This document shows, in pieces, positions 16,576 to 32,054 of a stretch of DNA of 44,677 bases (its first letter is position 1; each line of letters begins with the position of its first letter). The stretch comes from Candidatus Kuenenia stuttgartensis. GTDB lineage: Bacteria; Planctomycetota; Planctomycetia; Planctomycetales; Planctomycetaceae. The notes below the pieces were generated by a model, which made no database searches, was not told the DNA's origin, and worked only from the letters and a program-made list of their open reading frames with translations. Location: positions 1 through 44,677 of the forward strand of contig CAMDPK010000048.1 in the NCBI GenBank assembly GCA_945904015.1, read 5' to 3'. Position numbers and translations under genes: made by a program.

Positions 16576-16578
16576 GGG

Positions 16579-16702
16579 AGTGCAAAGTGCAGAGTGCAGA
16601 GTGCAGAGTGCAAAGTGAACTTCCGGAGTCGCAAGACCTCCGTTTCACGGGCGCGATTTCGACCAGTTTTCACTTTGCACTCTGCAGTCTGCACTTTGCA
16701 CT
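16579..16702. repeat. inverted repeat built of 'gtgcaaagtgcagagtg' units
   Basis: The left arm (16579-16617) is a tandem run of agtgca(a/g)agtgcagagtgc-like units and the right arm (16671-16702) carries the complementary units. It lies between the adaptor and pump genes. The same units form the repeat at 19852. Confidence 0.88.
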
Positions 16703-16759: not shown

Positions 16760-19700
16760 GTGCTGAGTTGGCTCGTCTCGACAGCCTTGCGTCTCCGCGT
16801 TGTCGTCCTCGCGGCGAGCGTGTTGCTGCTCGTCGTCGGCTTCCGAACATTGCGGCACGCGCCGATGGATGTCTTCCCGGAGTTCGCGCCGCCTTATGTC
16901 GAGATTCAAACCGAAGCGCCCGGACTCTCAACGCAGGAGGTCGAGTCGCTCGTGTCGATGCCGTTGGAGAACGCGCTCAACGGGACGGCGGGGGTGAAGA
17001 CGATCCGATCGAAGTCGGTGCTCGGTCTTTCGTCGATCGTGTTGATTTTCAATGCGGGGACTGACCTGATCAAAGCTCGGCAATTGGTGCAGGAGCGATT
17101 GACCGTCGAGGCGACTCGGTTGCCGACGGTGGCTCGGCCGCCGGTGATTTTGCAGCCGCTGTCTTCGATGAGCCGGCTGCTGAAAATCGGCGTTTGGTCA
17201 AAGGACCAAAAGCTGTCGCAGCGCGATTTGACAGTGCTGGCGTTGTGGACGATTCGGCCGCGGCTGATGGCGATTCCCGGCGTCGCGAATGTCGCGATCT
17301 GGGGTCAGCGCGATCGGCAGTTTCAAGTTCTGGTCGATCCCGAACGGCTGCGTGCGAACGGCGTGACGTTGGACGCGGTGCTCCGCGCGGCGGGGGATGC
17401 GACGGTGCTCGATACGGGCGGGTTTGTCGATACGCCGAATCAACGATTGGCCATTCGGCATCTGTCGCCGATTCTCGAACCGGACGACCTCGCGCGGACG
17501 GTGGTTGATTTCCGAGGGGGCGCGCCGGTGCGATTGGGGGACGTGGCCGAAGTCGTAATCGGTTCGCCGCCGCCGATTGGAGATGCCGTCATCAATGACC
17601 AGCCGGGCCTGCTGCTAATCGTCGAGAAGCAACCGCAAAGCAACACGCTGGAAGTCACTCGGCAAGTCGAGGCGGCACTCGAAGCACTCAGGCCGGGACT
17701 CAAGGATGTCGAGATGGACCCGAAGATCTTTCGCCCGGCGACGTTCATCGAACGCGCGCTCGACAACTTGTCGCATTCGCTGCTGATTGGCTGCGGGCTT
17801 GTGGCGATCATCTTGATCGCGTTCCTGTTCGATTGGCGGACGGCGATCATCAGCCTGACGGCGATTCCCTTGTCGCTGGTCGCGGCGGTGCTGGTGCTGA
17901 CGTGGTGGGGCGCGTCGATCAACACGATGGTGCTCGCCGGGCTGGTCATCGCGCTGGGCGAGGTCGTCGATGACGCGATCATCGACGTCGAAAACATCGT
18001 GCGTCGGCTGCGGCTCAATCGCGACTTGCCGTCGCCGCTACCGGCTTATCAAGTCGTGCTCGATGCTTCGCTCGAAGTTCGCAGCAGCGTGGTCTATGCC
18101 AGCTTGATCGTGACGTTGGTTTTCCTGCCGATCTTCTTTCTCGGCGGGCTGGCCGGCTCGTTCTTCCGGCCGCTGGCGATGTCGTACATCCTGGCGATTC
18201 TCGCGTCGTTACTCACCGCACTGACAGTGACTCCCGCGCTGTCGCTGATGCTGCTGTCGCACCGCAAGGGCGGCCAACACGAAGCTCCGCTGAGTCGCGT
18301 GCTGCGGGCGATGTATCGCAGGGTGTTGCCGCCGCTGATCGATCGGCCGCTGCTTTCGATGGGGGTGTTGTTCACGGCATTCACTCTGGCCGGAGCCGCG
18401 TACACGCGACTGGGTCAGGAATTCCTGCCGAACTTCCGCGAGACTGATTTCCTGATGCACTTTTACAATCGGCCGAGCACGTCGATCGAGGCGATGCACC
18501 GCATCACCGCGCGAGCCAGCCGCGAGTTGCGAAGTATCGACGGAGTGCTCAACTTCGGTTCGCACATCGGCCGGGCGGAAGTCGCTGACGAAGTTTACGG
18601 CCCGTACTTCACCGAACTGTGGATCAGCATCGACCCGAACGTCGATTACGACGCGACGCTGCTCAAGATTCAGACCGCCGTCGATGGCTACCCCGGCCTG
18701 TACCGCGACGTGCAGACGTACCTGAAAGAGCGAATCAAAGAAGTGCTGACCGGCGCGGGAGCGAGCGTCGTCGTCCGCGTCTACGGCCCGGAACTCGCCG
18801 TGTTGCGAGCAAAAGGCAAAGAGATCGAGAAAGTGATCGCCGACGTGCCGGGCGTCGTGAACCTGAAGGTCGAACCGCAAGTGCTCGTCCCGCAGATCGA
18901 AGTCCGTCTGCGTCCCGGTGCGGCTGAGCGATTCGGCCTGACCTCCGGCTACGTGCGCCGCGCGACAACGACGCTGATGAAAGGCGCGAAGGTCGGCGAA
19001 GTCTTCGAAGGACAAAAGAAGTTCGACGTCGTCGTCTGGAGCACCGAAGAAACTCGGCACGATCTGACCGCATTGCAGCAACTGGTGATCGACACGCCGT
19101 CCGGCACGCAGTTGCGATTGGGTGACGTCGCTGAGGTGAACGTCGTCCCGACCCCGAACGAAATCAAACGTGAAGGTGCCTCACGCCGGCTGGACATTAC
19201 TTGCAACGTGCAAGGCAGTGACCTCGGTTCAGTCGCAAAGGAAATTCAAAAGCGGGTCGTCGAGCGGATTTCGTTCGACCGCGAATATCACCCGGAATTC
19301 TTGGGCGAATATGCCGCTCGGCAAGAATCGAGCGAGCGGTTGTTGTCGCTGTCAGCCCTCGCGCTCATCGGCATCGTGCTAATTTTGTACGTCGATTTCC
19401 AATCGTGGCGGCTGACCGCGCTGGTGACGCTGACGCTGCCGTTCGCGCTGATCGGCGGCGTGGCCGGCGTGCTGCTGACCGGTGGCGTGCTGAGCCTCGG
19501 CTCGCTGGTCGGATTCGTGACGGTGCTGGGCATCGCGGCTCGCAACGGCATCATGCTCGTCAGCCATTACCGGCATCTGGAAGAAGTCGAGGGCGTGCCG
19601 TTCAGCCGCGAGTTGGTTCTGCGCGGAGCCGAAGAACGCCTCGCGCCGATCCTGATGACTGCGCTGGCGACCGGTCTCGCGCTGGTGCCGATCATTCTCG

Positions 19701-19870
19701 GCGGCATCAAACCGGGGCAGGAGATCGAACACCCGCTGGCAGTTGTGATTCTCGGCGGACTTGTGACTTCGACGCTGCTCAACGTGTTTTTGCTGCCGCC
19801 GTTGTATGCGAGGTTTGGGCGGCGTGATACGACGCGACTCGCAACAGAAACAGTGCAAAGTGCCGAGTGA
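16760..19870 (+). CDS. RND family efflux pump (CusA/CzcA-like heavy-metal-efflux branch)
   Basis: A 1036-aa inner-membrane transporter starting at GTG 16760 with ggag upstream. It has the standard RND duplication: TM1, a large periplasmic loop ([21 protein letters not shown], then [15 protein letters not shown]), TM2-6 with the TM4 motif [19 protein letters not shown], then a second TM7, loop and TM8-12 ([20 protein letters not shown]). TM4 has two adjacent Asp plus Glu for proton relay. Only the family is clear, because the TM4 motif is neither classical CzcA nor CusA. Its last five codons and stop fall inside an inverted repeat, so the C-terminus (TVQSAE) is repeat-derived. Confidence 0.92.
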
Positions 19871-19952
19871 AGAGTGCAAAGTGTCGAGTGACAGGCACGA
19901 AACATCTGCCGTCATTTTGCACTTTGCAGTTTTCACTCGGCACTTTGCACTG
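19852..19952. repeat. inverted repeat of 'gtgcaaagtg' type at a convergent junction, overlapping a gene end
   Basis: Arms at about 19852-19898 and 19912-19952 (cagtgcaaagtgccgagtga and complement). The stop codon of the RND pump (19868-19870) is contributed by the left arm. It separates convergent genes and shares units with the repeat at 16579. Confidence 0.88.
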
Positions 19953-19987: not shown

Positions 19988-20539
19988 TCACGGCGCTTCG
20001 CGAAAGCGAGTGCCATAACCTTTTGTCGCCAGCCGCTGGCCGATCGCCTCATAGACGGCTGGGTCGTGAGGCGTCCACGTCGCCAGACCATCGACGTACC
20101 GATTGAACATCGAAAACATCGCGGCGATCAGCACCGTGTCGTGAATCGCTTTGTCGTCCGCGCCTGCCTCACGAGCGATTCGCACGTCGTCGTCCGTGAC
20201 GAGCCGGCCGTCGCGGCGGACTTTCTCCGCAATCGCCAACAAGGCTCGCAGCTTGTCGTCGATCTGGGCGGTGGTCACGTCCGCGAAGACTTCGGCCACT
20301 AAACTGGACTGCTCGCCGAGCAGTTGCCGCGCCGCGGCTCCGTGGGCCTGCATTCAGAAAACACAGTCGTTGCCGGCGGAAACGTAGGCCGCGATGACTT
20401 CGCGCTCCGCCTCGGTCAGCGACGACGGGCCGCGCATCGCGGCTTGTGTGAGACTGTTGATGTGCTGTTCGGTGTCGCGATAGGTGACGAGCAGTCCAGA
20501 GATCCCTGGCTCGCCTTCGGGCAGTTTGATGTGTGCCAT
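19988..20539 (-). CDS. probable selenoprotein: AhpD-like/carboxymuconolactone-decarboxylase family protein with Cys59-x-x-Sec62 (UGA at 20356-20354)
   Basis: 183 aa when UGA is read as Sec. The family active site is ExxCxxCxxxH; here the sequence is AGNDCVF-U-MQAH, so Sec replaces exactly the second (resolving or peroxidatic) Cys and the His is kept. The N-terminal half has LTEAEREVIAAYVSA and the C-terminal half has FADVTTAQIDDKLRALLAIAEKV, both typical of AhpD/CMD proteins. AhpD-like CxxU selenoproteins are established in other bacteria. The start lies 10 bp after the ABC ATPase stop, so it is the last gene of the importer operon. It also terminates at UGA (19988-19990). A gene caller would give two fragments (20354-20539 and 19988-20353). 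Confidence 0.88.
20309..20338 (-). promoter_or_regulatory. candidate SECIS region after the Sec62 codon
   Basis: Two adjacent perfect hairpins on the mRNA: gccgc-ggc-gcggc (20326-20338, loop beginning 21 nt after UGA, first loop base G) and ctgctc-ggc-gagcag (20309-20323). The first fits the reported bacterial SECIS distance; the second is stronger but farther away. By-eye folding only. Confidence 0.45.
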
Positions 20540-20549
20540 TGTTTTCTCC

Positions 20550-21386
20550 TCAATCGCCTGCGTCAGGAGGAATGCCGTTTTGCAGGCTCATGCCCAAGGC
20601 ATGCAGAATGCGATCGCGCGTGTCGAGATAATCGCGAGAGTTCAAGTCGCGCGGCCGGGGCAGCGACACGGACAGGATGAGTCGAATCGTCGACGGCCGC
20701 GAACTGAGCACCACGACGCGGTCGGCTAATTGGATGGCTTCGTCGATGTCGTGCGTGACAAACAAGATGGTCTTCTTCTCTTGTTGCCAGATGCGCACGA
20801 GGTCGGCTCGCATTTTGAAGCGCGTGAAATAATCGAGCGCTCCGAATGGCTCGTCCATGTAGAGGACTTCCGGGTTCGCGGCCAGTGCTCGCGCAATTTC
20901 GACGCGCTGACGCATACCTCCCGACAACTGCCGGAGATAGGCGGACTCAAAACCGGTGAGACCGACCATGTCGATGTAGTGTTGGACGATTTGGTTGCGC
21001 TCGGCCGCTGTCTTGCGAGAGAGCGCGAAGCCGACGTTCGCCGAAACGGTGAGCCAGGGAAATACGGAGCCTTCCTGAAAGATGACGATTCGGCGCGGGT
21101 CCGGTCCGTGGACTGGCTCCCCTTCCACCTGCACTTCGCCGCGCGACGCATTCAGAAATCCGGCGATGATGTTGAGCAGTGTCGTTTTCCCGCAGCCTGA
21201 TGGGCCGACAACGCAGACGAACTCGCCGCGTTGGATCTCGACGTTGATCCGTTCGAGGACGGGGACGGCCTGGCTTCCCTGTTTGACCGGAAAGTCCATC
21301 CACACGTCGCGAACGAGAACCGCCGCAGGCCCAGTTCGTTCGGTCGGCAGGTTCTGTGCGGGTGGCTCAATCATGCAGAGTCCCAT
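20550..21386 (-). CDS. ABC importer ATPase, nitrate/sulfonate/taurine family (SsuB/TauB/NrtD-like)
   Basis: A 278-aa ATPase with Walker A GPSGCGKTTLL, signature LSGGMRQRVEIARAL, Walker B EVLYMDEPFGALD and switch His in FVTHDIDEA. The LDYFTRFKMR stretch after Walker B is typical of this importer family. It starts at ATG 21386, 20 bp inside the permease gene; ATG 21374 is an alternative. With the permease and binding protein it forms a complete importer. The substrate within the family (nitrate, sulfonate, taurine, bicarbonate, others) cannot be read from the ATPase. Confidence 0.93.
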   Translation of the reverse strand: MGLCMIEPPAQNLPTERTGPAAVLVRDVWMDFPVKQGSQAVPVLERINVEIQRGEFVCVVGPSGCGKTTLLNIIAGFLNASRGEVQVEGEPVHGPDPRRIVIFQEGSVFPWLTVSANVGFALSRKTAAERNQIVQHYIDMVGLTGFESAYLRQLSGGMRQRVEIARALAANPEVLYMDEPFGALDYFTRFKMRADLVRIWQQEKKTILFVTHDIDEAIQLADRVVVLSSRPSTIRLILSVSLPRPRDLNSRDYLDTRDRILHALGMSLQNGIPPDAGD

Positions 21387-22182
21387 ACGCCCACTTCACC
21401 GTCTGAAAGCGTTCGACTTGTCGCATCAACAAATCCAGCAACCAACCGATCACACCAATCAGGACCATGCCGGCCACCACGAGGTCATATCGCTTGCCGG
21501 CATTCCGCGCGTCGATGATGAGATAGCCCAGACCAGAGTTGACGGCGATCATCTCGGCCGCCACGACGACTAGCCACGCGATGCCCAGGCCGATCCGCAA
21601 TCCGGTGACGATCTGCGGCAGGCTCGCCGGGAAGATGACTCGGCTAAACAACTGGAACTTCGTCAGGCCGAAGTTGTCGGCCGCTCGCAGATAAACCGAC
21701 TGCACGCTTTTGACGGCCGCCGCAGTGGAGACGGTGATCGGGAACACGCTCGCCAGAAAAATCAGGAACACCGGTGCCGCGTCGGAGACTCCGAACCACA
21801 GAATGGAGACCGGAATCCAGGCGATCGGCGAGATGGGTCGAAAGCCCTGGATCAACGGATTAAATGCCTCTTGCACCAGCTTGTTGGAGCCCATCAAGAG
21901 TCCAAACGGGATGCCCACGATCACCGCCAGAGTGAAGCCCCACGTCACTCGAAACAGCGAAGCCACGACGTACTTGATGAGCAATCCTTTTTGGGCGAGT
22001 TCCACCAGCCCCCACAGCACGTCGAGCGGTTTGGGAAACAACTGGCTGCCCGACAACCGCACCGCCCCGTCCCAGAAGAGCAGAAACATCACGGCGACGA
22101 TCGACGGCAAGATGATCGCCCTGGCGGAAACGAACGGCGGCTCTTGCCCGATCACTTCGGTGGGTTGTGCTGCGGATGTCAT
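21367..22182 (-). CDS. ABC importer permease, nitrate/sulfonate/taurine family (SsuC/NrtB-like)
   Basis: A 271-aa membrane protein with about six hydrophobic segments (IVAVMFLLFWDGAV, VTWGFTLAVIVGIPFGLLMG, APVFLIFLASVFPITVS and so on). The EAA loop is AADNFGLTKFQLFSRVIFPAS-, the coupling helix that contacts the ATPase. The end IIDARNAGKRYDLVVAGMVL is characteristic of SsuC/TauC/NrtB. Its ATG overlaps the binding-protein stop (atga), and its stop overlaps the ATPase start, so the three are tightly coupled. Confidence 0.94.
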   Translation of the reverse strand: MTSAAQPTEVIGQEPPFVSARAIILPSIVAVMFLLFWDGAVRLSGSQLFPKPLDVLWGLVELAQKGLLIKYVVASLFRVTWGFTLAVIVGIPFGLLMGSNKLVQEAFNPLIQGFRPISPIAWIPVSILWFGVSDAAPVFLIFLASVFPITVSTAAAVKSVQSVYLRAADNFGLTKFQLFSRVIFPASLPQIVTGLRIGLGIAWLVVVAAEMIAVNSGLGYLIIDARNAGKRYDLVVAGMVLIGVIGWLLDLLMRQVERFQTVKWAYGTLHD

Positions 22183-23225
22183 GGCGTGTCTTCCCAGAGA
22201 TAAGGTTGGATCGCAGACTCATCCGTGACAAACGAGGGATCGGCGTAGTCCTCGAAGTGAGCCGTGCCTTGCAGCGTGCCTGACTCGCGGCCGACTAGTT
22301 CGATCTCTTCGAAATCCTTGCGCCGCACCGCGAGGTTGGTGTACTTCACGCGATCCGGCGGTTTGCTGAGCACAAACTCCAACAGCTTGGGATCCTGGTT
22401 GTAGTAGTTCTGCCCGGTGAACTTCGCCGCTTGCATGCGGTGATCCATCGTCGTGTCGAGCCACTTGCCACTGCGTGCGATGCCATCGACCAGTTGCTGC
22501 ACCTCGGCGCGATGGTCGCGGATGACGTCTTCGTGGACCGCCAGCACGCACGAGATGAATTCCGGCCAGACGTCCTTCGTCAGAAAGAGCACGCGGCCGT
22601 AGCCATCCATTTCGGACTGAGCCATGAATGGTTCGCCGGAGATGATGGCATCGACCGCACGAACATGCAGCGCGGCCGGCATGTCCGGAGGGGGCATCTC
22701 CAAGAGCGTCACATCGTCTATGTTCAGACCACGCTCCTTGAACGCTCGGAAAATGATGAGCCGTTGATTGGAGAAGCGATTGGGCACCGCAACTTTTTTC
22801 CCGCGCAGATCCTCGATGCGATGAATGTCCGAGTCCTTGTGAACCATCATCGTCGTGCCGTCGCGATGCCCCAGGTAGACGATCTTGATCGGCACACCTT
22901 GCTCGCGCAGAGCCATCGCCATCGGGGCCAGAATGAAACTCGCTTGCAGATGCTGCGACAGGAACGCCTCTTTCAATTCCGGCCAGCCGTTGAACCGCAC
23001 GGGTTCAAAAGTCCCGGAACCAGTCATGCTCTTGTTGATGAAATGGGTCACGGGACACGTCAGGTGTCAGGTGACTGGCAGGAAACCGACCCGAAATTGC
23101 TTGCCGGTCTGTCCCGTGGAAACGGTTCTCTTCTCGAACGCCGACGTGTTGAGCCACAGGTGCAACAAAGTCACCGTGCCCAACCAGCCGATCGCCGCCA
23201 GCAGAACTCTGCGCTGTAGAGACAT
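22179..23225 (-). CDS. probable selenoprotein: ABC substrate-binding protein (NMT1/NrtA-like) with Sec53-x3-Cys57 (UGA at 23069-23067)
   Basis: 348 aa when UGA is read as Sec. It starts at ATG 23225 with an N-terminal membrane anchor/signal (RVLLAAIGWLGTVTLLHLWL). Residues ~45-60 read KQFRVGFLPVT-U-HLTCPVTHF; the VGFLPVT strand is the canonical first beta-strand of NMT1/NrtA-type binding proteins, so the true N-terminal domain lies upstream of the UGA and the two parts form one fold. The body has HLQASFILAPMAMALREQGV, LRGKKVAVPNRFS and AVDAIISGEPFM, all typical of the family. Sec53 sits beside the expected ligand cleft and is 4 residues from Cys57. It overlaps the permease start. The weakest of the five Sec calls, since I recall no established Sec-containing member of this family. 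Confidence 0.78.
23011..23056 (-). promoter_or_regulatory. possible extended SECIS-like stem after the Sec53 codon
   Basis: On the mRNA, gucccg (from 11 nt after the UGA) can pair with cgggac about 35 nt later; an inner gaccca/ugguuc stem with one mismatch and a ucau/auga stem could stack below a 10-nt loop. The loop lacks an early G, so the match to known SECIS elements is poor. Confidence 0.3.
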
Positions 23226-23265
23226 GGAGTCTTTGTCCGGAATAGGCGTTGTTTGCACGCAAGAT

Positions 23266-23323
23266 GTAGGTTGGGACTCTGTCCCGACCCGAATCGAATG
23301 GTCGGGACGGAGTCCCAACCTAC
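23266..23323. repeat. inverted repeat 'gtaggttgggactc(t/c)gtcccgacc'
   Basis: The 24-bp arms 23266-23289 and 23300-23323 differ at one base around a 10-nt loop. It lies in the 118-bp gap between the coiled-coil gene and the binding-protein gene, the largest break within the eight-gene minus-strand array, and could divide it into two transcripts. Confidence 0.9.
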
Positions 23324-23343
23324 TTTGGTGCGGCTTCGCCTCC

Positions 23344-23619
23344 CTACTTGCTCAGAATCTTTTTCTGGTTGGCCAGAATCTTGGTCTGGTTGGCCTCAAT
23401 GCGTTTCTGATTCTTGAGGATCGCGCCTTGGTTGCTGAGGACTTTGTCGAGCTTGGCCTGGTTGGCCTGAATCTTTTTCTGATTCGCCAAGATTGCCGTC
23501 TGGTTGCCGACCACTTTGTCGAGCTTCGACTGGTTCTCTTCGATCTTGGCTTGGTTGGCGAGGATCTGCGCTTGATTGCTCAGGATCGATTGCTGATTGC
23601 TGATGACTTCGTCGGCCAT
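23344..23619 (-). CDS. small coiled-coil protein of NQ-heptad repeats
   Basis: A 91-aa protein starting at ATG 23619 with aggag 8 nt upstream; a GTG at 23628 overlaps the ribosome site and is less likely. Nearly the whole chain is repeats of the form N-Q-x-x-I-L-A, with eleven NQ pairs, twice lengthened by three residues (NQSKLDKVVG, NQAKLDKVLS). If Ile/Leu occupies position a, Asn occupies d in almost every heptad, a pattern known from Asn-at-d trimeric coiled coils. No signal peptide or membrane segment. It begins 5 bp after the deiodinase-like gene ends, so it is co-transcribed with it. Function unknown; an oligomerising scaffold is an inference. Confidence 0.85.
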   Translation of the reverse strand: MADEVISNQQSILSNQAQILANQAKIEENQSKLDKVVGNQTAILANQKKIQANQAKLDKVLSNQGAILKNQKRIEANQTKILANQKKILSK

Positions 23620-23624
23620 GTTCG

Positions 23625-25148
23625 TCACTCCTGGTTTGGGGTTTCAATGGTCTTGTCCGTTGGTTGCTTCGTGCTCGGTTCGCTGGTCGTGGGCATTTTC
23701 GACTGTGCTTCGTCCAGCAGCAGCATGATCAATGCTTGTTCCAGCTCGCGCGGCTTGTAGCCATACGGGCCTCGGCCTCCTTTGTAGGCCACGCGGCCTT
23801 CGCGGTCGATCAAGTACAGCCGCTCCGGGAAGCCGCTGTATTCACGGCCGACCGCGTCGTCGATGCCATCGACCAGCATGGGCAGAGACATTTTGAGCGA
23901 ATCGTTGCACTGGATCGCCACGCTGGTCCGTTCGGCGGCGGTCTTCGGTTGCGTGATGTTGATCCCAACTCGTTTGTTGGATGCCATGCTCCAGCCGTCC
24001 GAGGGATGTGCTTCGCGAATGTAAACGGAATAGAAGTCGGCTCGGTCTTTGAACCGAGCGAACAGCTTGTCGATGACCCCAGACTGGGATCGATAGGGGC
24101 CTCAGGTGAAACTGCCGAACACGAGCACCACCGGCCGCTTTCCGAACGAGTCGGACAGCGTGACGTTGGCGGTGCCATCGTGTTTCGGCAGCGTGAAATC
24201 CGGGGCGACATCGCCCACTTGAGGACCAGAAGTCAACCAACCCATATCGCCGCGCAGAAACATTTTGAGAGCGGCGGCTGGAGTGGACGGATCAATGGAA
24301 GGGGGACTGTTGTCCGGTTCGCTGGCAGGTTTCTTGGCTGGCGGAGGGTCCATCGCGAACCGCAGGTCTTCCGGGGTGAGGAATTCGAGTTCCTCCTTGT
24401 CGCCGTAGCGGAAGAACTCGGCCAGTTCTTCCATCGTGACGCGACCGTTCGAGTCCTTGTCGAGTCGGCCGAAGAGCTGATTGGACATCATGTTCTTCAT
24501 CGCCGGCACGTTCATGAACATCGTCGCCGGGTTCGGGTCGGTGAAGTCGAAATCCGCAGGCATGACTTTGCCGTCGCCGTCACGATCCAGCCGCTCGAAC
24601 AGTTGATCGGCCTTGGCCACTTCGCCGGGAAGCTCGTCCCGCTCGACCTTGCCGTCTTTGTTCGCATCCAAACGTTCGCTCAGCCAATTCCAGTCGTAGC
24701 GTTTCGCACTTGGCTTCCACCAACCGGCACCGGGCCGCATGAAGTCGTTTTTCAGGATCGCGACCGCCATCTCGCCCCACTCAGGCCGGTCCTTCCAGTC
24801 TTGCTCCAGCATCTGGCCGAGCGACTTCATGTGTTCGGGGCTGAGGTTGCCAAGCAGCTCTTTGGTCAGAGCAAACTCGGTCGGAGAAGTGTCGGACTTG
24901 GGACTTGAGCTTTGAGGTTCCGGGCTTGCTGGTTCCGAGGACTCGGCCTTCGGCGTTTGGTCGGACTTCTTTGCCTTGCCCTTCCGCTTCGTTTTCAAGG
25001 CCGGCTTCGAATCGTCGTTGACCGACAAGGCGTTGCCGTTTGTCACCGGAGGATCGTCACTCGCCCCCCGCAATGGGACTCCCAGCAGGCTGCCGACACC
25101 GACAGTCGCGCCACAGGCGAAGACTCGAAGCCACGGGTTTGTTTTCAT
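23625..25148 (-). CDS. probable selenoprotein: secreted EF-hand + deiodinase-like protein (Sec349, UGA at 24104-24102)
   Basis: 507 aa when UGA is Sec. ATG 25148 (aggag upstream) starts a signal peptide (VFACGATVGVGSLLG). A low-complexity Lys/Ser/Pro linker follows, then three EF-hand loops: 161-172 DANKDGKVERDE, 188-199 DRDGDGKVMPAD, 230-241 DKDSNGRVTMEE. From ~309 an AhpC/TSA-thioredoxin fold (VGDVAPDFTLPKHDG) leads to VLVFGSFT-U-GPYRSQ, matching the iodothyronine deiodinase site (GSxT-U-P), and then SVYIREAHPSDGW, the deiodinase hallmark following the active site. The C-terminus is LYLIDREGRVAYKGGRGPYG. Deiodinases use Sec for reductive dehalogenation, but bacterial homologues may be peroxiredoxin-like. 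Also ends in UGA. A caller would stop at 24102. Confidence 0.9.
24075..24091 (-). promoter_or_regulatory. candidate SECIS hairpin after the Sec349 codon
   Basis: On the mRNA a 6-bp stem gauccc/ggggucc-type (one U-G wobble) encloses the loop agucu, starting 17 nt after the UGA. The wobble exists only on the coding strand, and the loop resembles aguuc at 10694 and the agg(u)cu loop recalled for E. coli fdhF. By-eye folding only. Confidence 0.6.
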
Positions 25149-25224
25149 GGGAATCACTCCTGGTGCGATGCACGGTTGATGTTGGTATCGCTGACCCAGC
25201 AAACATACGACGCATTTCCGTCCC

Positions 25225-26565
25225 TCATTGACGCTTCTTTGAGTTTGCTGGCGCGGAGCCGGGTTGGTGGTGATGGTTCAGCCAATCCGAGATCGCATTC
25301 AATTCCTTTCGATCCAGCAGGCCATCCTTGTCGATGTCGAGCGAATCGAACTGCGGCAGGATCAGCCCCCGCGCCTCGCTCTTGCTGAGCTTGCCGTCGC
25401 CGTCTTTATCGCCAGACAGCATTTGACGAGTGAACTCCTTCGGATCCCAGTAGCCTGCGCCTTCGCCTCGCGCGCCGCCGCCGTCGTTGTCACGCTTGCG
25501 ATGCAGAACGTACTCTTGCTTGACCGTGTGACAACTCTCTTCGCCGACGCACGCGGAATAGGTCACAATCAGGCGAAGAGGTTCGCCGTCGGGCCAAGCC
25601 TCGACGTTCAACAGGAACTCACGCGGGTCCGTATCACTGACGGCCTCGACCTTCGGCGCGACATCCGTCAGCTTGTCAACCTTGACTCCTTCGCAAATCT
25701 CCAGCTTGAACGACAGCGGTTTCGTCAGGTTGTTCCAGTGGCCATTGTGGAATGGATCGAGATGAAAGCCGAAGTAGAGCCGGCCGGCTCCGTTCCGAAT
25801 CAAGTCGGCATCGGCCTCAGCCCGCAGCTTGGCGAAGAACGGCAGTCCCTTCGGTTCGATGTGCGGTTCCATGACGATGGGTTGCATCTGCGGGCGGCTG
25901 ATGCGCGGCACGACTCCGCGAGCGGCCGGCGCTTTGATCGGCAATTCGAGTTTGAGATGCACGTCCTCTTCTCGCGTGATCTGTTCGACGGGGCCAACCA
26001 GTTCTTCCAGGTCTTTGCGAACCTGATCCGGATGACTCCACGCGCGCTTGCGAACGATGATTCCGTCTGGGTTCACAAGGAACTCCGAGTTGGGCCGATC
26101 ACCGAGTGCGTGCTTGAGCCGGTTATCCATCGCGTCCACGACCCAGGGGATCGTGGCTCCGAGTTGCTTGTCGGCTTGCCGAGCGTGGGCCAATCGTTCG
26201 GCGAGCGTAAATGGTTGCACGTAGTTGCCGGCGAGTTCGGGATGAGCCAGCGTCTTGTAGATGAAAAAGAACTTCACCCCTTTGGGACCGTAGTCCCGAT
26301 GCACCGCCTCCAGACCGGAGACGTTCCACAGGAATGGCGGTCAGGTCAGACAGCCGAAGGTGAGCACCGTGTAATGCCCTCGCAAGTCGGCGGTTTTGAA
26401 CGCCATTCCATCGGACGAGTAGACGGTCACATCCGGCAACGGGTCGTCAACCAGAGGTTTGGATTTGAGAAACTCTTCCTCTCGTTCTTGCATCCTCTGA
26501 GCTTGGATGTCCGCCGGCCATGCGACGAATGCCATCACGAGCACAAGCAGTGAGGCAAAACGCAT
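25225..26565 (-). CDS. probable selenoprotein: secreted deiodinase-like protein with C-terminal EF-hands (Sec75, UGA at 26343-26341)
   Basis: 446 aa when UGA is Sec. ATG 26565 has ggag upstream and begins a signal peptide (FASLLVLVMAFVAWPADIQA). A thioredoxin-fold domain follows directly: LRGHYTVLTFGCLT-U-PPFLWN, almost identical in pattern to the deiodinase site GSCT-U-PPF, then FFFIYKTLAHPELAG in the place of the deiodinase YxxEAH stretch. Residues ~160-370 form an unassigned domain with the pair CVGEESC, similar in spacing to DsbD-like modules. Two EF-hand loops close the protein: 386-397 DKDGDGKLSKSE and 410-421 DIDKDGLLDRKE. Paralogous in plan to the neighbour at 23625 but with the domain order reversed. 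Terminates at UGA; a caller would leave a 101-aa stub. Confidence 0.9.
26304..26340 (-). promoter_or_regulatory. candidate SECIS structure after the Sec75 codon
   Basis: Immediately after the UGA, ccgcc pairs with ggcgg 28 nt later; inner ucc/gga and gga/ucc stems lead to a 5-nt apical loop (acguc) 17 nt after the UGA, the same distance as at 24075. The loop lacks an early G, so the match is partial. Confidence 0.45.
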
Positions 26566-26632
26566 GACAGTCTCCAATCTTTCAAATCGAGGCGATTGAG
26601 ATCGCGGGGCAAAACTTCCATCCAATGACCAA

Positions 26633-27055
26633 TTAAAGAATGGCATGAAACACTGTCAGGACCGGGGCGGTCCCGACAACGTAGGTGACGTTCTTCTTTT
26701 TTGGCTCACCGCCATCAGCAGGGATCAGTGTGAGTTCCACTTCGCAGTACCAATTGGCATCTTCGGCTCGGCCGTCTCCGATGACCTGAAACTCTTGCAG
26801 CTTCACACCGTTGGTCCATTGAGCTTCCTGCACGACGATTTCAGGCGATCGCTTGCGCAAGTCCTCCATGTTCCCGCCGCTCTTCCAATGTTCGAGCACT
26901 TGGTTCAACGTGGCTTTCGCCAAATCCACTTTCACCGGCTGATTGCGTGGACCACCGCATCCCGACAGCGAGAGACACACGACGACACACTTCAGCACGG
27001 CTACGCCTTGTCGAACAGGCGTGTCGAACGAGTTCCGGAAAAATGCGGAGAACAT
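26633..27055 (-). CDS. small secreted lipoprotein of unknown function
   Basis: A 140-aa protein; ATG 27055 is chosen over an upstream in-frame start lying in the inverted repeat. The lipobox is VCLSLSGCGG, so it should be lipid-anchored. The mature part has no recognised domain: KATLNQVLEHWKSGG, then an alternating strand region (DANWYCEVELTLIPADG) ending VTYVVGTAPVLTVF. Such proteins often sit beside DUF1559 genes in planctomycetes, as here. It lies 67 bp before the EF-hand deiodinase-like gene and may head that transcript. Confidence 0.85.
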   Translation of the reverse strand: MFSAFFRNSFDTPVRQGVAVLKCVVVCLSLSGCGGPRNQPVKVDLAKATLNQVLEHWKSGGNMEDLRKRSPEIVVQEAQWTNGVKLQEFQVIGDGRAEDANWYCEVELTLIPADGGEPKKKNVTYVVGTAPVLTVFHAIL

Positions 27056-27071
27056 AATTGACCTTCGTAAG

Positions 27072-27135
27072 TGGGGCAGGTTTTCAATCTGCCCGTCAGA
27101 GTGCATTAGTCGGGCAGGTTGAAAACCTGCCCCAC
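27072..27135. repeat. inverted repeat 'gtggggcaggttttcaa-ctgcccg'
   Basis: Arms 27072-27096 and 27112-27135, ~24 bp with one or two mismatches around a 15-nt loop. The arm sequence recurs almost identically at 33129-33217. Confidence 0.92.
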
Positions 27136-27157: not shown

Positions 27158-28093
27158 TTAGAATTCGCCCACGACTTCCCCACCCCGACGAGTTCCGATG
27201 GCTCGCCAAGTGGCGATGTTGATGCTGCTGTTTGCGAATCGCACGGCTCCATCACCCATCAACACATGCACCCCACCGGCGTGCCGACTACTCGCGGTCA
27301 TCGCTGCCTTTTGGGCGGGTTGAAAACCACAGGAGCGAGAATTCGGAGGGCCGATGTGCTGATAGGCGTGCTTGCCGTCCATCCACGGCGCGCCCATGAA
27401 CTGCGGGAATTGATTCGCCAAGTTGGTGACGTTGACTGCGGCGCACATCTGCACGGCGTCATTCGGAGTCAGTGGATTCGCGGCACTCAAGTAGGTGTCC
27501 GCATCGGGAGTGGAAATCCCGTTGGAACCGTCTGTCAGATTTCGCTCGCTAAACACGGCCGTCTGACTGGAGCCATCCTTGAGATCCGCGATCTTGGTGG
27601 AGCTAGAGTAATAGATCACTCCGTCCCCGGCCGGGTCATTCCACAAGACGCTGGTTCCCTTATTGGGGTTGTAGTTCGTCGCGCCTCCTGACGCCGGAAG
27701 TGGATTCAGCAAATCAGACGGACAAAGAAACTGCGGCAATATCGCCAGGCCAGCCGCCACATTCGCGGGGTCCGTGATCAGCTTTTTGAAATCAATCTTC
27801 TTGAACAAGGGAGCCTGATCGAGGTGCGGCAAGAGCTGGCTGAGCGCCGAATATTTATTCCCGGTTCCGCCAAGCGCGAACGGGAAGCACCTGGCTGTAT
27901 CGAGGTAGTTGTGCAAGGCCAAGCCGATTTGCTTGAGGTTGTTCTTGCACTGCGATCGCCGAGCCGCTTCTCGAGCCGCCTGCACGGCGGGCAAAAGCAG
28001 CGCGATCAAAACCGCGATGATGGCGATGACGACCAAGAGTTCGATCAGCGTAAAACCACGACGAACCGATGAGGAATGCAGAGTTCGAGACAT
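27158..28093 (-). CDS. DUF1559 prepilin-like protein
   Basis: A 311-aa protein. ATG 28093 (gggag upstream) precedes a type IV pilin-like leader: [20 protein letters not shown], where prepilin peptidase would cleave between Gly and Phe and methylate the new N-terminus. The following [21 protein letters not shown] is characteristic of DUF1559. The C-terminal [12 protein letters not shown] is the H-X9-DG motif of planctomycete pilin-like proteins. These expanded families are thought to be surface or pseudopilus components; individual roles are unknown. Confidence 0.95.
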
Positions 28094-28378
28094 CACACCA
28101 CTCCCGAAAATGAAGTTCAGAGAAAAAATCACAGAGCCAAAACTCCAGCGAAATTTCCGCACGGAGCTTGAATGACTGTCGAACTCGCGGCTTTTCAGCG
28201 GCGAGAAGTTCACGACTCAATCCAACAAAGCATTTCGCGCGTGCGCAGAGCGGACGCGCCACATTGATCCGTCTGAAACGCGAGCCACAGCGATCACGAC
28301 GCAATACGCTCTCGTCGCTTGGACGAGGACGCGCAGGGACATGCCCAACGTCGGTGCGGGACTCCGGACGAACCGGAT

Positions 28379-28783
28379 TTACCCTCGCGGAGGGCGATCC
28401 AGCAGTTGGCTCGTGTGCCGAGCCATGCGCGGTGCAGACTCCAGCGACCGGCGATTGCAACCATCGTCCTGGCCACGAATCTGTTCGATCACGCAGAGCC
28501 ACTCCACGGAAGAAGTCGTCTCGACCGTCGGCCGAGTCGGGAGGGGCGGAGTCTCGGAACGGCGGGAGCAGTTGGCTCCGCGGCACGGGGTCGTCGGCAT
28601 TTGGTGCTGGGTGCCGGAACCATCAGTCGGCAGCAGCGAGTGGGCCAGATCCCCGTGATGCTGCAAGTAGTCGCCACAGCTCGCTTGGCACGTCTGTTCG
28701 CCACCAAACCAAAAACCGAGCACGATCGCAACAAGTGCGAATCGGCTGGCGCGGCGCAGTGAGTAGGTCTGGACGTGCGACAT
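28379..28783 (-). CDS. small secreted Cys/His-rich hypothetical protein
   Basis: A 134-aa protein when started at ATG 28783, which directly precedes a basic region and hydrophobic signal (FALVAIVLGFWFGG). The mature part is rich in Cys and His: QTCQASCGDYLQHHGDLAHS, then PCRGANCSRR. The PCxGxxCS spacing is of a kind I associate with small planctomycete secreted proteins near outer-membrane porins. It sits beside an alginate-export-type porin on the same strand, 194 bp away. Metal binding is a guess from composition only. The frame could be longer upstream but without a signal peptide. Confidence 0.6.
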   Translation of the reverse strand: MSHVQTYSLRRASRFALVAIVLGFWFGGEQTCQASCGDYLQHHGDLAHSLLPTDGSGTQHQMPTTPCRGANCSRRSETPPLPTRPTVETTSSVEWLCVIEQIRGQDDGCNRRSLESAPRMARHTSQLLDRPPRG

Positions 28784-28977
28784 CGGTGGGGAGAGTAGCG
28801 TCGCGATGCTCAATTTGTGAAACAAGAAATCTGTGAAATTCAGGTTTTCTTCAGGTTGGAGACGACCGTTGGTTCTACGGGGATCGAATCGACCACTCCG
28901 TGCCGGACTCTTCAAACGCAATCGCTCCGGCCGAGGCGACCGGAGCGTTTGCAAAGAGATTGACGATCCGAGGCCGG

Positions 28978-30723
28978 TTAGTACCGCAGCGACGTTTGAA
29001 TGTAGAGTTGCGTGGCGTCGTTTGCTCCGAGTGGGCCGTTGACCGGACCGCTGAAGTGCGAGCCATACCAGAACCAACTGTAGCCGAACTGCACGTCGAA
29101 GTTCGGGTTGTGGGCGTACGTCGCGATCAAATCAAGTTCTTGCCCGACGTCTGTGCCTGTTCCCGCCGCGCCAACCGGCGCACCGGCGACGTTGTAGACC
29201 CTGTCGGAATTGCTCGCGAGCGTGAACCAATGCATTGCCGCCAGTCCGGTCAGCTTCGCGTGCGGTTTGATCGTGCCTTGCAGTGCAACGTCATTGAGGT
29301 TTTGCCCCGAGAGATTGTCGATGATGCCCCAGTAGGCGTGATTCAAGGGGACCAAGACGTCGTAGGTCGTGTTCTTGCCGTCGCCGGGATTGGAGTCGCC
29401 CGAACCCCAGTAGTAGATGAACGACAATTGCGGGGTCCACGTCACCTGCGAAAACGTCGTGCCCAGTTTCGTCGTGAAGAAACCCGCCTGCACATTCAGG
29501 CCATTGTCCTTGCCGAACTGGTACGCCCCTTCCGTGTCCGAGGCGAAGACGATCCAGGGTTGATCACACTCATCTTTGATCGGCTTCGTCATCGTCCATC
29601 GCAGGCCAAGCGTGTGTCGATCACCGTCCGCCCAGCCGAGGACATGTTGAGCGGAATCCGTTTGCAGCCAGACGTAATACGGCTCGATCGTGTTGTCCTT
29701 GATCCCTTTGTAGACCGAGTAGACGCCGCTGTACCAACGGGAGTAATCGGCCGTGTCGTGATGCGTGCCAAAGAAGTTGACAGCAGCCGGGCTGATTCCC
29801 GTCGTGGCTGCTGGACGCCCGCCGATTGGTCCCGTGGGGTTAGCGGTGTTGACCGGGCGGACGGCGAACAGGTCGATGTCCCAGGTGTCGCCTTTGCTGA
29901 ACAGCTTGAAGCCCTCAAAATTTCGGCGAGTGTTCGCCCAATCGAGCGGTGAGATCAATTGCTGACCAGGGCTGACACCGCTCGGCGTTCCGTAGAGCAA
30001 CTCTTGGCGACCGGCTCGAAAATAGACTGGCTTGTCGTCTCGTTCCGCGATTTTCAGATCGAAGAACGCGTTCTGAATGTCCCAGCGGTTCTTGTCGATG
30101 CCGGTGACGGCGAGTTCGTTGTTGAAGATCGAAGCGTCGATGCCCTCGACGTAGACTCGGAAGTCGTTGCCCCACTTCAGATCGACGTACTGACGCCAGC
30201 GAAGCAAGTCGTAGGTGCTTCGCCCCGGCCCACCCGGACGCAGACGATTGTTTTCGTCCATGTAGCGATGCCGAATCTCGCCGCCGTAGGAGAGCGTGAG
30301 TCCGCTCGGCTCGCAGTCGTCGCCGAAGAGCGGCATGTTCTTCAACTCTTCGCCGAGAAAGTGCGGGGGGTTCGGCTTGGTTTTGTACGAAAAGTCGTTG
30401 TCGAAATAGAGCGGCTTCCACGGCAAGACCGGTGCAGCCGGCTTTGCAGCGGGAGCCGGATTGCAAATCGGGCAATCAGGACGTCCGCACGGCCCCGATT
30501 GCGGAGCGTTCAGATGCTCGCGAAATGCCACCGTCAGCGGAGCCTCTTGCGCGGGAGCGTCTTTGACATTCTCGAGCGCTGTCGCTTCGGAAGCGGCAGT
30601 CTCCGCCGGTTGAACCGGTGGCACGAGAGCCTCTTGAGCAGGAACAACCTGCGGGACGAACCATGTCGCGGTGGACAGGGCCACCACGGACAAACAACGA
30701 AATCGCCAACTCATTCGGAGCAT
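28978..30723 (-). CDS. alginate-export (AlgE)-type outer membrane porin
   Basis: A 581-aa protein starting at ATG 30723, with signal peptide SVVALSTATWFVPQVVPAQ. After a Pro/Ala-rich spacer and a four-Cys motif (CGRPDCPIC, preceded by a Gly-Pro), the chain becomes an amphipathic beta-strand protein: GLTLSYGGEIRHRYMDEN, RWRQYVDLKWGNDFRVYVEG, FRAGRQELLYGTPSG and WDIDLFAVRPV. It ends in an aromatic LYIQTSLRY, typical of an outer-membrane barrel. The family exports or imports anionic polysaccharide. The N-terminal Cys cluster before the barrel is unusual and could be a small metal site. Confidence 0.88.
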   Translation of the reverse strand: MLRMSWRFRCLSVVALSTATWFVPQVVPAQEALVPPVQPAETAASEATALENVKDAPAQEAPLTVAFREHLNAPQSGPCGRPDCPICNPAPAAKPAAPVLPWKPLYFDNDFSYKTKPNPPHFLGEELKNMPLFGDDCEPSGLTLSYGGEIRHRYMDENNRLRPGGPGRSTYDLLRWRQYVDLKWGNDFRVYVEGIDASIFNNELAVTGIDKNRWDIQNAFFDLKIAERDDKPVYFRAGRQELLYGTPSGVSPGQQLISPLDWANTRRNFEGFKLFSKGDTWDIDLFAVRPVNTANPTGPIGGRPAATTGISPAAVNFFGTHHDTADYSRWYSGVYSVYKGIKDNTIEPYYVWLQTDSAQHVLGWADGDRHTLGLRWTMTKPIKDECDQPWIVFASDTEGAYQFGKDNGLNVQAGFFTTKLGTTFSQVTWTPQLSFIYYWGSGDSNPGDGKNTTYDVLVPLNHAYWGIIDNLSGQNLNDVALQGTIKPHAKLTGLAAMHWFTLASNSDRVYNVAGAPVGAAGTGTDVGQELDLIATYAHNPNFDVQFGYSWFWYGSHFSGPVNGPLGANDATQLYIQTSLRY

Positions 30724-30965
30724 GATTGCAAAGACCTTTGGGGCTTGGGGAGAAAAGAGCGAGCGCTCTGATCTGCTCTCTCGTGTCGGAAAGGACGACG
30801 ATGCCGAATCAGCGTCGTCCGCACTCAAGCCAGGTCGAATTCCAGCGGCTTGTCCCGCGCAAGCAATGTTTCGCCAACCGTGAAAGTCGGTCTGTGGTTT
30901 TCGCTCGTGGTGGATGCGTCTCGCATCCAAGATGCCCGGTTTTTCAAAATGTGGGCATCTGAACG

Positions 30966-32054
30966 TCACGCTCGCGAGTACGGGCCAGTGGCTGAGCCTT
31001 TGAACTGACGGAATCCCGCTTGGACGGTCTGTCGCATGACATCGGCCGCTTTCAACACGTCGTCGCGGCTGACATCGAGGTGCGTGCAGCCGCGAAGTCG
31101 CTGCGCACCGGAGGCTCCGACCTTCACGCCTCGCTCCAACAAAGCGGCCGCGAACTGCGCAGCGTTGCCGAGTTTCGGATCGACCTCGAAAAACACGAGG
31201 TTCGTTTCGACGTCGTCCACTTGGATCGACAGGCCGTCGATCTTGGTGATCTCGCGAGCGAGCGTCTTCGCGTTGTCGTGGTCAATCGCGAGCCGCTTGA
31301 CGTTGTTCTCCATCGCGTAGACTGCCGCTGCCGCAACGATGCCCGCTTGACGCAACGCGCCGCCGAACAGTTTGCGGGCGCGACGTGCCTTGCGAATGTC
31401 GTCGGTACTGCCGACGAGGACCGAACCCATCGGACAGCCAAGCCCCTTCGAGAAACAGATCGAGATCGTGTCGAAGTGCTGCCCGACATCGGCCGCTGAG
31501 TAGCCGTTCGCGACACAAGCATTGAAGAGCCGCGCTCCGTCGAGATGTGTCTTCAAGCCGTTGTCGTGCGCCCAACCGCAGACGCGCGCGAGTTGATCGA
31601 GCGGCCAGGCTCGGCCACCACCGACGTTGGTCGTGTTCTCCAAACACAGCAACCGCGTGACGCAGAGATGCTGGTTGTCCGCTCGCACTTTGCCTTCAAG
31701 GTCCGCGACGTCCAACATGCCCACCCGGCCGGGGATCGTTCGGCATGTGACTCCGCTGAGCACGGCGGGGCCGCCCGCTTCGAAACAGGCGATGTGACCG
31801 GTCGTTTCGATCAGCAATTCGTCACCGGGCAAGCAGTGTGTCTTCACACCCATCTGATTGGACTGCGTTCCCGAACAGGCGAAGACGGCGGCCTCTTTGC
31901 CCAGGGTCTTGGCCATCAACGCTTCGAGCCGATTCACGGTGGGATCCTCGCCCGACATGTCGTCGCCGACTTCCGCGCGAGCGATCGCCTCTCGCATTGC
32001 GGCCGTGGGCTTCGTCACCGTGTCGCTGTAAAGATTGATGAGCACGTCGGGCAT
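30966..32054 (-). CDS. low-specificity threonine aldolase
   Basis: A 362-aa PLP enzyme of fold type I that splits threonine/allo-threonine into glycine and acetaldehyde. ATG 32054 has ggag 8 nt upstream; longer in-frame starts lack a site. Seen: LYSDTVTKPTAAMREAIA at the N-terminus, the GDDMSGEDPTVNRLE glycine-rich stretch, HLDGARLFNA with the PLP-contacting Asp, and ICFSKGLGCPMGS with the Schiff-base Lys203. Length and motifs match the family fully. It is a stand-alone gene between the porin and a divergent aminotransferase. Confidence 0.95.
   Translation of the reverse strand: MPDVLINLYSDTVTKPTAAMREAIARAEVGDDMSGEDPTVNRLEALMAKTLGKEAAVFACSGTQSNQMGVKTHCLPGDELLIETTGHIACFEAGGPAVLSGVTCRTIPGRVGMLDVADLEGKVRADNQHLCVTRLLCLENTTNVGGGRAWPLDQLARVCGWAHDNGLKTHLDGARLFNACVANGYSAADVGQHFDTISICFSKGLGCPMGSVLVGSTDDIRKARRARKLFGGALRQAGIVAAAAVYAMENNVKRLAIDHDNAKTLAREITKIDGLSIQVDDVETNLVFFEVDPKLGNAAQFAAALLERGVKVGASGAQRLRGCTHLDVSRDDVLKAADVMRQTVQAGFRQFKGSATGPYSRA

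Follow-up and report, generated by a model that had tools for sequence, protein, structure and literature searches.

A probable selenoprotein island joining an ABC importer with deiodinase-like and AhpD-like proteins on a planctomycete contig

We analysed a stretch of 44,677 nucleotides, contig CAMDPK010000048.1 of the assembly labelled Candidatus Kuenenia stuttgartensis, called the window below (it is contig C48 of a draft genome of 7.43 Mb in 286 contigs, with a completeness of 91.7% and a contamination of 2.65%). From 27106 down to 19988 its minus strand carries eight genes coding, in this order, for a lipoprotein-like protein, deiodinase-like proteins 1 and 2, a coiled-coil protein, the substrate-binding protein (SBP), the permease and the ATPase of an ABC importer, and an AhpD-like protein. 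Four of these frames (both deiodinase-like proteins, the SBP and the AhpD-like protein) are broken by an in-frame UGA. From comparison of the sequences we estimate at about 0.88 the probability that these four UGAs are read as selenocysteine (Sec), that the genes form a genuine selenoprotein island and that the Sec of the SBP, U53, lies in the ligand-binding region of this importer component.

Evidence for selenocysteine at the four UGA codons

The first-pass annotation of this DNA had placed the interruptions at 26341, 24102, 23067 and 20354, with homology continuing past each of them and with a UGA again as the terminal stop of all four genes; these points are confirmed, the positions being exact. 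With TGA taken as Sec and the stop included, deiodinase-like protein 1 (25225..26646, probable start 26565) is a frame of 474 codons, with a thioredoxin-fold domain containing GCLTUPPF and with C-terminal EF-hands; its UGA, at 26341..26343, is followed by 371 open codons up to the final stop. Deiodinase-like protein 2 (23625..25202, probable start 25148, 526 codons) has its EF-hands before the deiodinase domain, marked by GSFTUGPYR and EAHPSDGW, and 158 codons are open beyond the UGA at 24102..24104. The SBP (22179..23318, 380 codons) is made of an N-terminal helix and an NMT1_2 domain with the motif LPVTUHLTCPVT; its UGA at 23067..23069 is residue 53 when numbered from the probable start at 23225, and is followed by 295 open codons. 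In the AhpD-like peroxidase-related protein (19988..20539, 184 codons) the UGA at 20354..20356, within the motif CVFU, leaves 121 open codons to the stop. When Sec was entered as Cys in a profile search of the window frames, Pfam matches spanned the UGA: T4_deiodinase with 111.5 bits (cut-off 27) in deiodinase-like protein 2, NMT1_2 (PF13379) with 125.2 bits (cut-off 24.7) in the SBP and CMD with 44.1 bits (cut-off 23) in the AhpD-like protein; for deiodinase-like protein 1 the T4_deiodinase score is only 25.9 bits, below the cut-off of 27. Gene callers that treat UGA as a stop would truncate all four proteins.

Sec and Cys replace each other at these positions in homologues. A search of genome_contigs with the SBP gave 226 relatives; the best 80 of these 226 loci, analysed here under L numbers, hold 81 matches, in which the Sec-site codon is TGA (30), TGC (37) or TGT (14) and nothing else. 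On a tree of 81 rows, the 80 loci and the window (Sec column masked, LG+G4, long branches flagged), seven changes between U and C are required, five of which are forced by starred branches. Among 294 Planctomycetota genomes, 25 match the SBP at E 1e-20, with TGA at the site in 15, Cys in 6 and Asp in the 4 most distant. In the 29 loci where the Sec site of deiodinase-like protein 2 was read, TGA stands there 26 times and TGC three times. Deiodinase-like protein 1 has matches in 2 of the 294 genomes, its own included, both with TGA; the UGA is found in L065 and L180, and Cys takes its place in the more distant L182 and L183. For the AhpD-like protein, L065, L066, L078 and L079 carry the UGA and L182 a Cys. 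The homologues, which the first-pass annotation had named as a check, thus did not refute the Sec reading. Besides, nonsynonymous divergence (dN) is lower than synonymous divergence (dS) on either side of each UGA in all comparable pairs with L064-L066, at a ratio of about 0.04 to 0.48 (deiodinase-like protein 1 being comparable with L065 only); downstream of the UGA of the SBP, dS is 0.32-0.47 and dN 0.012-0.025 between close relatives.

That the UGAs would be sequencing errors, pseudogene stops or signs of a reassigned code is hardly credible. Such an explanation could draw on the draft state of the genome and on the lack of SelD in it, but the UGAs are identical in the independent assemblies L064-L066 and, with dN below dS, this led us to reject errors and pseudogenes; a code with UGA as sense was rejected because UGA terminates all four genes, and neither TAA nor TAG is ever seen at the SBP site in the 81 matches.

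The machinery for Sec, which the first-pass annotation had also proposed to look for, is present in the host as far as selA, selB and selC are concerned: tRNA-Sec (selC) scores 73 bits (cut-off 47), SelB 348.5 bits, and SelA 424.4 and 271 bits in two contig-end pieces (C254 and C172; L014 and L015). These selA pieces overlap by 357 bases at 94% identity, which hints at two copies or at strain mixing. SelD is missing from the draft, but the genomes of the three nearest relatives, L064, L065 and L066, all have it (288-292 bits), so that its absence is likely a gap in a draft that is 91.7% complete. In a survey of 53 chosen genomes (27 U-type, 25 C-type and one D-type, by the residue at the SBP site) and 14 control genomes, tRNA-Sec reaches at least 60 bits in 23 of the 27 U-type genomes, in 11 of the 25 C-type ones and not in the single D-type genome; SelD, surveyed in 28 chosen genomes, exceeds its cut-off in 17 of 19 of U-type versus 3 of 9 of C-type. 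Fisher tests of these two U/C contrasts give p 0.003 and 0.005, uncorrected for kinship. Together, the exchanges between U and C, the Sec machinery and dN below dS support the Sec decoding that had been proposed for the four UGAs.

The case for Sec is weakest where the hairpins resembling a selenocysteine insertion sequence (SECIS) are concerned. Among the 31 U-type rows of the SBP, 19 read PVTSWVT after the Sec and all 19 have a hairpin of 6-7 pairs with the loop AGTTG; both sides of its pairs are changed in L132 and L137, and L143, the sole C-type row with PVTSWVT, keeps 6 pairs with a loop AGCTG. Of those 7 pairs only 1-3 are left in the remaining 12 U-type rows, that of the window included; in the window a longer imperfect stem starts 10 bases after the UGA of the SBP, and is predicted in L064-L066 too. 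Hairpins with a G-bearing loop follow the UGA of deiodinase-like proteins 1 and 2 in the window, their score being matched by 2.4% and 3.6% respectively of 2000 synonymous shuffles.

Several results weigh against the reading of these genes as a Sec island. No SelD above the cut-off is found in the host draft genome, its two weak matches being ThiL-like and HypE-like as judged from sequence and neighbours. The line of 60 bits for tRNA-Sec was set by our analysis, within a gap of scores from 53.8 to 61.3, and the U/C contrast depends on it, since at the cut-off of the family itself, 47 bits, the contrast vanishes (24/27 U-type and 23/25 C-type, 47 of the 53 genomes overall); the 47-bit cut-off fails to separate tRNA-Sec from its likenesses, because 5 of the 14 controls exceed it too. 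Four U-type genomes stay below the 60-bit line. The hairpin at the UGA of the AhpD-like gene is unremarkable, 22% of the synonymous shuffles scoring as well, and no short G-loop hairpin follows the UGA of the SBP in the window, L064-L067, L070, L087, L108 and L112.

Partners of the importer and cohesion of the island

The deiodinase-like and AhpD-like identities and the EF-hands given by the first-pass annotation are supported. Deiodinase-like protein 2 passes the cut-offs of both deiodinase families, PF00837 and NF038285 (424.9 bits for a cut-off of 250 in the latter); in an alignment with deiodinase chains of types II and III its UGA falls on the cysteine of their FGSxTC motif, and EAHPSDGW is conserved. 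Deiodinase-like protein 1 is a distant relative, which misses both cut-offs (only 61.2 bits with NF038285), and the long EF-hand region distinguishes the island proteins from the known ones. The AhpD-like protein passes the cut-off of TIGR01926 (90.3 bits, cut-off 81.8) and has CxxU in common with the AhpD-like and peroxidase-related selenoproteins; only its neighbourhood differs. Known selenoprotein types are recognisable in three of the four selenoproteins, the likeness being weak in one of these. Bacterial selenoproteins of the deiodinase-like and AhpD-like kinds go back to the Sargasso Sea study, which in 2005 reported the former with a redox role then unknown; bacteria are not expected to have thyroid hormones (PMC1088965). 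The island gives these bacterial deiodinase-like proteins a possible partner, which can be tested.

Deiodinase-like protein 2 has matches in 72 of the 294 Planctomycetota genomes, and 87 of 93 matches contain TGA somewhere; in the Planctomycetota deiodinase-like loci that were read (L184-L209) the TGA mostly stands within FGSYT-TGA-PPFR. Further CMD/AhpD-like frames near the island, with an in-frame TGA after CxY, look like additional Sec proteins in L064 (3952-5457), L066 (5210-6664) and L067 (9860-11269); the similar frame of L115 (2682-4205) has Cys at that position.

The importer is complete, as had been claimed: the SBP is followed by a permease (21367..22182, minus strand, PF00528) and an ATPase (20550..21386, minus strand, PF00005). 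The permease comes after the SBP in 77 of the 80 loci and the ATPase in 75, and four of the five loci with a miss end there (the exception is L080); L112 has two tandem ATPase matches and L118 two tandem SBP copies, both with UGA. The small repetitive coiled-coil protein (23344..23628, minus strand) is found upstream of the SBP in nine loci: L064-L068, L070, L078, L079 and L115. Homologues of deiodinase-like protein 2 lie nearby in seven of these nine (not in L068 and L070), all from planctomycete relatives, and AhpD-like matches lie near the SBP in four of the 80 (L065, L066, L078 and L079). The lipoprotein-like small protein (26633..27106, minus strand) is present as first described, but its upstream end is 27106, not 27055; it adjoins the island in relatives too, with matches in L064-L067, L078, L079 and L115.

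The tie between deiodinase-like proteins and importer proposed by the first-pass annotation is partly supported: it persists in seven loci, over a range of SBP identity from 68 to 96%, but at E 1e-6 no deiodinase-like match was found in the stretch available for each of the other 73, nor in 20 loci of other planctomycete genomes (5 contigs shared with the 80). In the 71 loci lacking the coiled-coil frame, and in those 20, none of the coiled-coil, deiodinase-like and AhpD-like partners was matched at E 1e-6 within the stretches available, among which contig ends are frequent. In this lineage, then, the genes form a genuine group of some age, but elsewhere the importer seems to do without these partners. 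Beyond the near relatives, the conserved neighbours of the importer gave no functional clue, a minority of the smaller clusters being annotated; neither of the two largest clusters, in 14 and in 9 of the 80 loci, has a Pfam match, and they may not represent genes. Could the deiodinase-like and AhpD-like genes then stand beside the importer by chance, Sec genes having gathered without a common task? This is a real possibility, although we hold it for rather less probable than a coin toss: the linkage is seen in only seven of the 80 loci, all of planctomycete relatives, and was not matched in the 20 other planctomycete loci, and deiodinase-like genes are found in 72 of the 294 genomes versus 25 for the SBP; against this, the order coiled-coil, SBP, permease and ATPase, with a deiodinase-like gene, persists despite switches between Sec and Cys, some island members being Cys forms in L065, L067, L078, L079 and L115.

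The binding site of the SBP and its possible ligand

With Sec and Cys forms taken together, the motif of the SBP reads LPVT[U/C]HLTCPVT. For the nearest loci, L064-L066, the source is a metagenome bin with the label Planctomyces sp. (SH-PL62 in two of the three), and L070, farther, is labelled Isosphaeraceae, the family to which the host genome presumably belongs. By record label, Sec forms come from Planctomycetota and Acidobacteriota, and the Cys forms reach further, into Verrucomicrobiota, Ignavibacteriota, Myxococcota and Bdellovibrionota as well; the sequenced strain Planctomycetes bacterium Pla163 (L131) has a U-type SBP, and the Verrucomicrobia relative Brevifollis gellanilyticus (L088) a Cys form. 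No relative was found in the viral contigs, and the plasmid records gave only distant SBPs (492 records, all below 60% identity). In L165-L174, from another phylum, distant SBPs of this clade follow a putative response-regulator domain within frames 645-692 residues long, and their C226 column shows HPCC. The SBP exceeds no NCBIfam cut-off. In what we could consult of the review PMC13188914, its motif is absent from the table of 119 selenoprotein families, and no work dealing with this SBP, or with deiodinase-like genes next to an importer, turned up among titles and abstract openings. Sec in transport proteins is rare in the same table, where the entries that we recognise as ABC transport are SaoX (UxP), SaoB (CUxxT), SaoP and BtuF (CxxU). 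The repeated exchanges of Sec and Cys in the SBP offer a natural experiment on what Sec contributes to the capture of a ligand, and not to catalysis.

In the working that we propose, the two deiodinase-like thioredoxin-fold proteins are exported and the SBP is anchored to the membrane, with the pair formed by U53 and C57 in its ligand-binding region; the AhpD-like CxxU protein, encoded together with the permease and the ATPase, lacks a hydrophobic N-terminus and is therefore probably cytoplasmic, so that the system is mostly extracytoplasmic, as the first-pass annotation had it, but not entirely. Our tentative preference, held at somewhat below even odds, is that U53 with C57, C226 and H120 might bind a soft metal ion, or some other ligand with affinity for selenols, which the importer brings in. 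The same annotation had proposed a solute of the nitrate/sulfonate family: the fold is indeed shared, but the nitrate, taurine and sulfonate models of NCBIfam stay below their cut-offs (114.2 bits for the sulfonate model SsuA, TIGR01728, cut-off 163.5). The nearest solved relative, 3un6, an ABC SBP of Staphylococcus aureus, was crystallised with zinc, and for this reason we prefer a soft metal or a metal-like ligand to nitrate or sulfonate. It shares the fold, the LPIT motif and the H120 and C226 columns, but it has His at column 53, neither Sec nor C57, and its cargo is unknown. PMC6344411 deals with a NitT/TauT importer linked to the clade B nickel carbon monoxide dehydrogenase, gives its SBP as a homologue of 3un6 and conjectures that this SBP supplies metal; unlike that system, the island has no match to that dehydrogenase among its proteins and has Sec or Cys at the site. 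Three points count against a metal: column 53 of the SBP is Thr or Ser in 5 of 16 readable distant loci (L160-L164), the zinc of 3un6 may be adventitious, and no metal gene is a conserved neighbour, among those neighbour clusters that were annotated. As for the partners, it is doubtful, although conceivable, that the deiodinase-like proteins act outside the membrane to maintain the binding site or its ligand in the reduced state and that the AhpD-like protein handles the ligand or peroxide inside.

Other ligands have to be weighed against a soft metal. The Sec/Cys pair might be redox-active or nucleophilic, forming a selenylsulfide or attacking the solute, so as to capture a disulfide, a persulfide or another thiol-reactive solute, with the deiodinase-like proteins as reductants. 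We regard this as rather unlikely. U53 and C57 are four residues apart, C57 being present in the alignment only in rows with U or C at column 53, and the deiodinase-like and AhpD-like partners adjoin the SBP; DszB, of the same fold, was solved as a C27S mutant with its sulfinate substrate, C27 being presumably the nucleophile. On the other hand, column 53 is Cys in L159, which lacks C57, and Asp in L153, which has it, and most of the loci, 73 as said, have no deiodinase-like match beside the importer. It is less probable still that the cargo is nitrate, bicarbonate, a sulfonate or another anion or vitamin of the fold family of NrtA, CmpA, SsuA and TauA, the Sec merely tuning the site: 3un6 is closer to the SBP than any of these, the corresponding NCBIfam models stay below their cut-offs as said, and an almost invariant soft residue, U or C, is unusual for an oxyanion site.

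We give a similarly small chance to the uptake of an organometal as in the Sec-assisted organometallic (SAO) operon, an explanation that overlaps with the soft-metal one. Like the island, SAO has Sec SBPs (SaoX and SaoB) of a NitT/TauT-like importer in an operon of several selenoproteins, with a related permease and ATPase, and the best NCBIfam matches of our permease and ATPase are SaoP and SaoA. However, all the Sao cut-offs are missed (SaoX 51.1/300 and SaoB 13.9/140 bits for the SBP, SaoP 184.9/295 bits for the permease, SaoA 242.9/360 bits for the ATPase), no model of SaoC, SaoL or SaoT matches any of the eight island proteins at E 1e-3, the island has deiodinase-like and AhpD-like partners, and its U53 is followed by HxTC. 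Direct membership in SAO was rejected on these missed cut-offs. A true SaoX occurs in 1 of 297 genomes (L210, 480 bits, without Sec); it has NCDHMT where the window has VTUHLT, keeps the H120 and C226 columns and reads TCDPW farther on, the second place at which the Sec of SaoX (UxP) may stand. CUxxT of SaoB, as given in the table of PMC13188914, resembles UHLT of the window, and from the shape of the motif we infer that both might use the same Sec column. By curated tests the SBP is not a Sao protein, but it looks like a cousin. Tso and other selenoprotein operons likewise have several selenoprotein genes each, but differ in gene content as far as the table of this review tells (PMC13188914).

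A bolder reading, and in our opinion a quite improbable one, would be a Sec-dependent uptake pathway of the envelope, in which exported Sec deiodinase homologues would reduce an extracellular halogenated compound or one carrying a chalcogen or a metal, the Sec/Cys pair of the SBP would capture the soft product, and the importer would pass it to the Sec AhpD-like enzyme. If this were true, Sec/Cys importers would be a widespread transport class in their own right, represented by Sec forms in two phyla or more and by Cys forms in a larger number.

Surroundings of the island

Upstream of the island lie a DUF1559 pilin-like frame and an alginate-export-type porin (window 27158-30969), which are likewise upstream in L064-L066. 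On the other side, inverted repeats with GAGTGCA/AAGTGCA-like units, at 16578-16702 and 19849-19952, flank a CusA/CzcA-like RND gene (16760-19870), whose score with TIGR00914, 632.9 bits, is below the cut-off of 701.45. Farther away, at 36219-38168, repeats with a period of 27 bases potentially encode a GGxGNDTL-type pattern, which we take to be like the calcium-binding repeats of RTX proteins.

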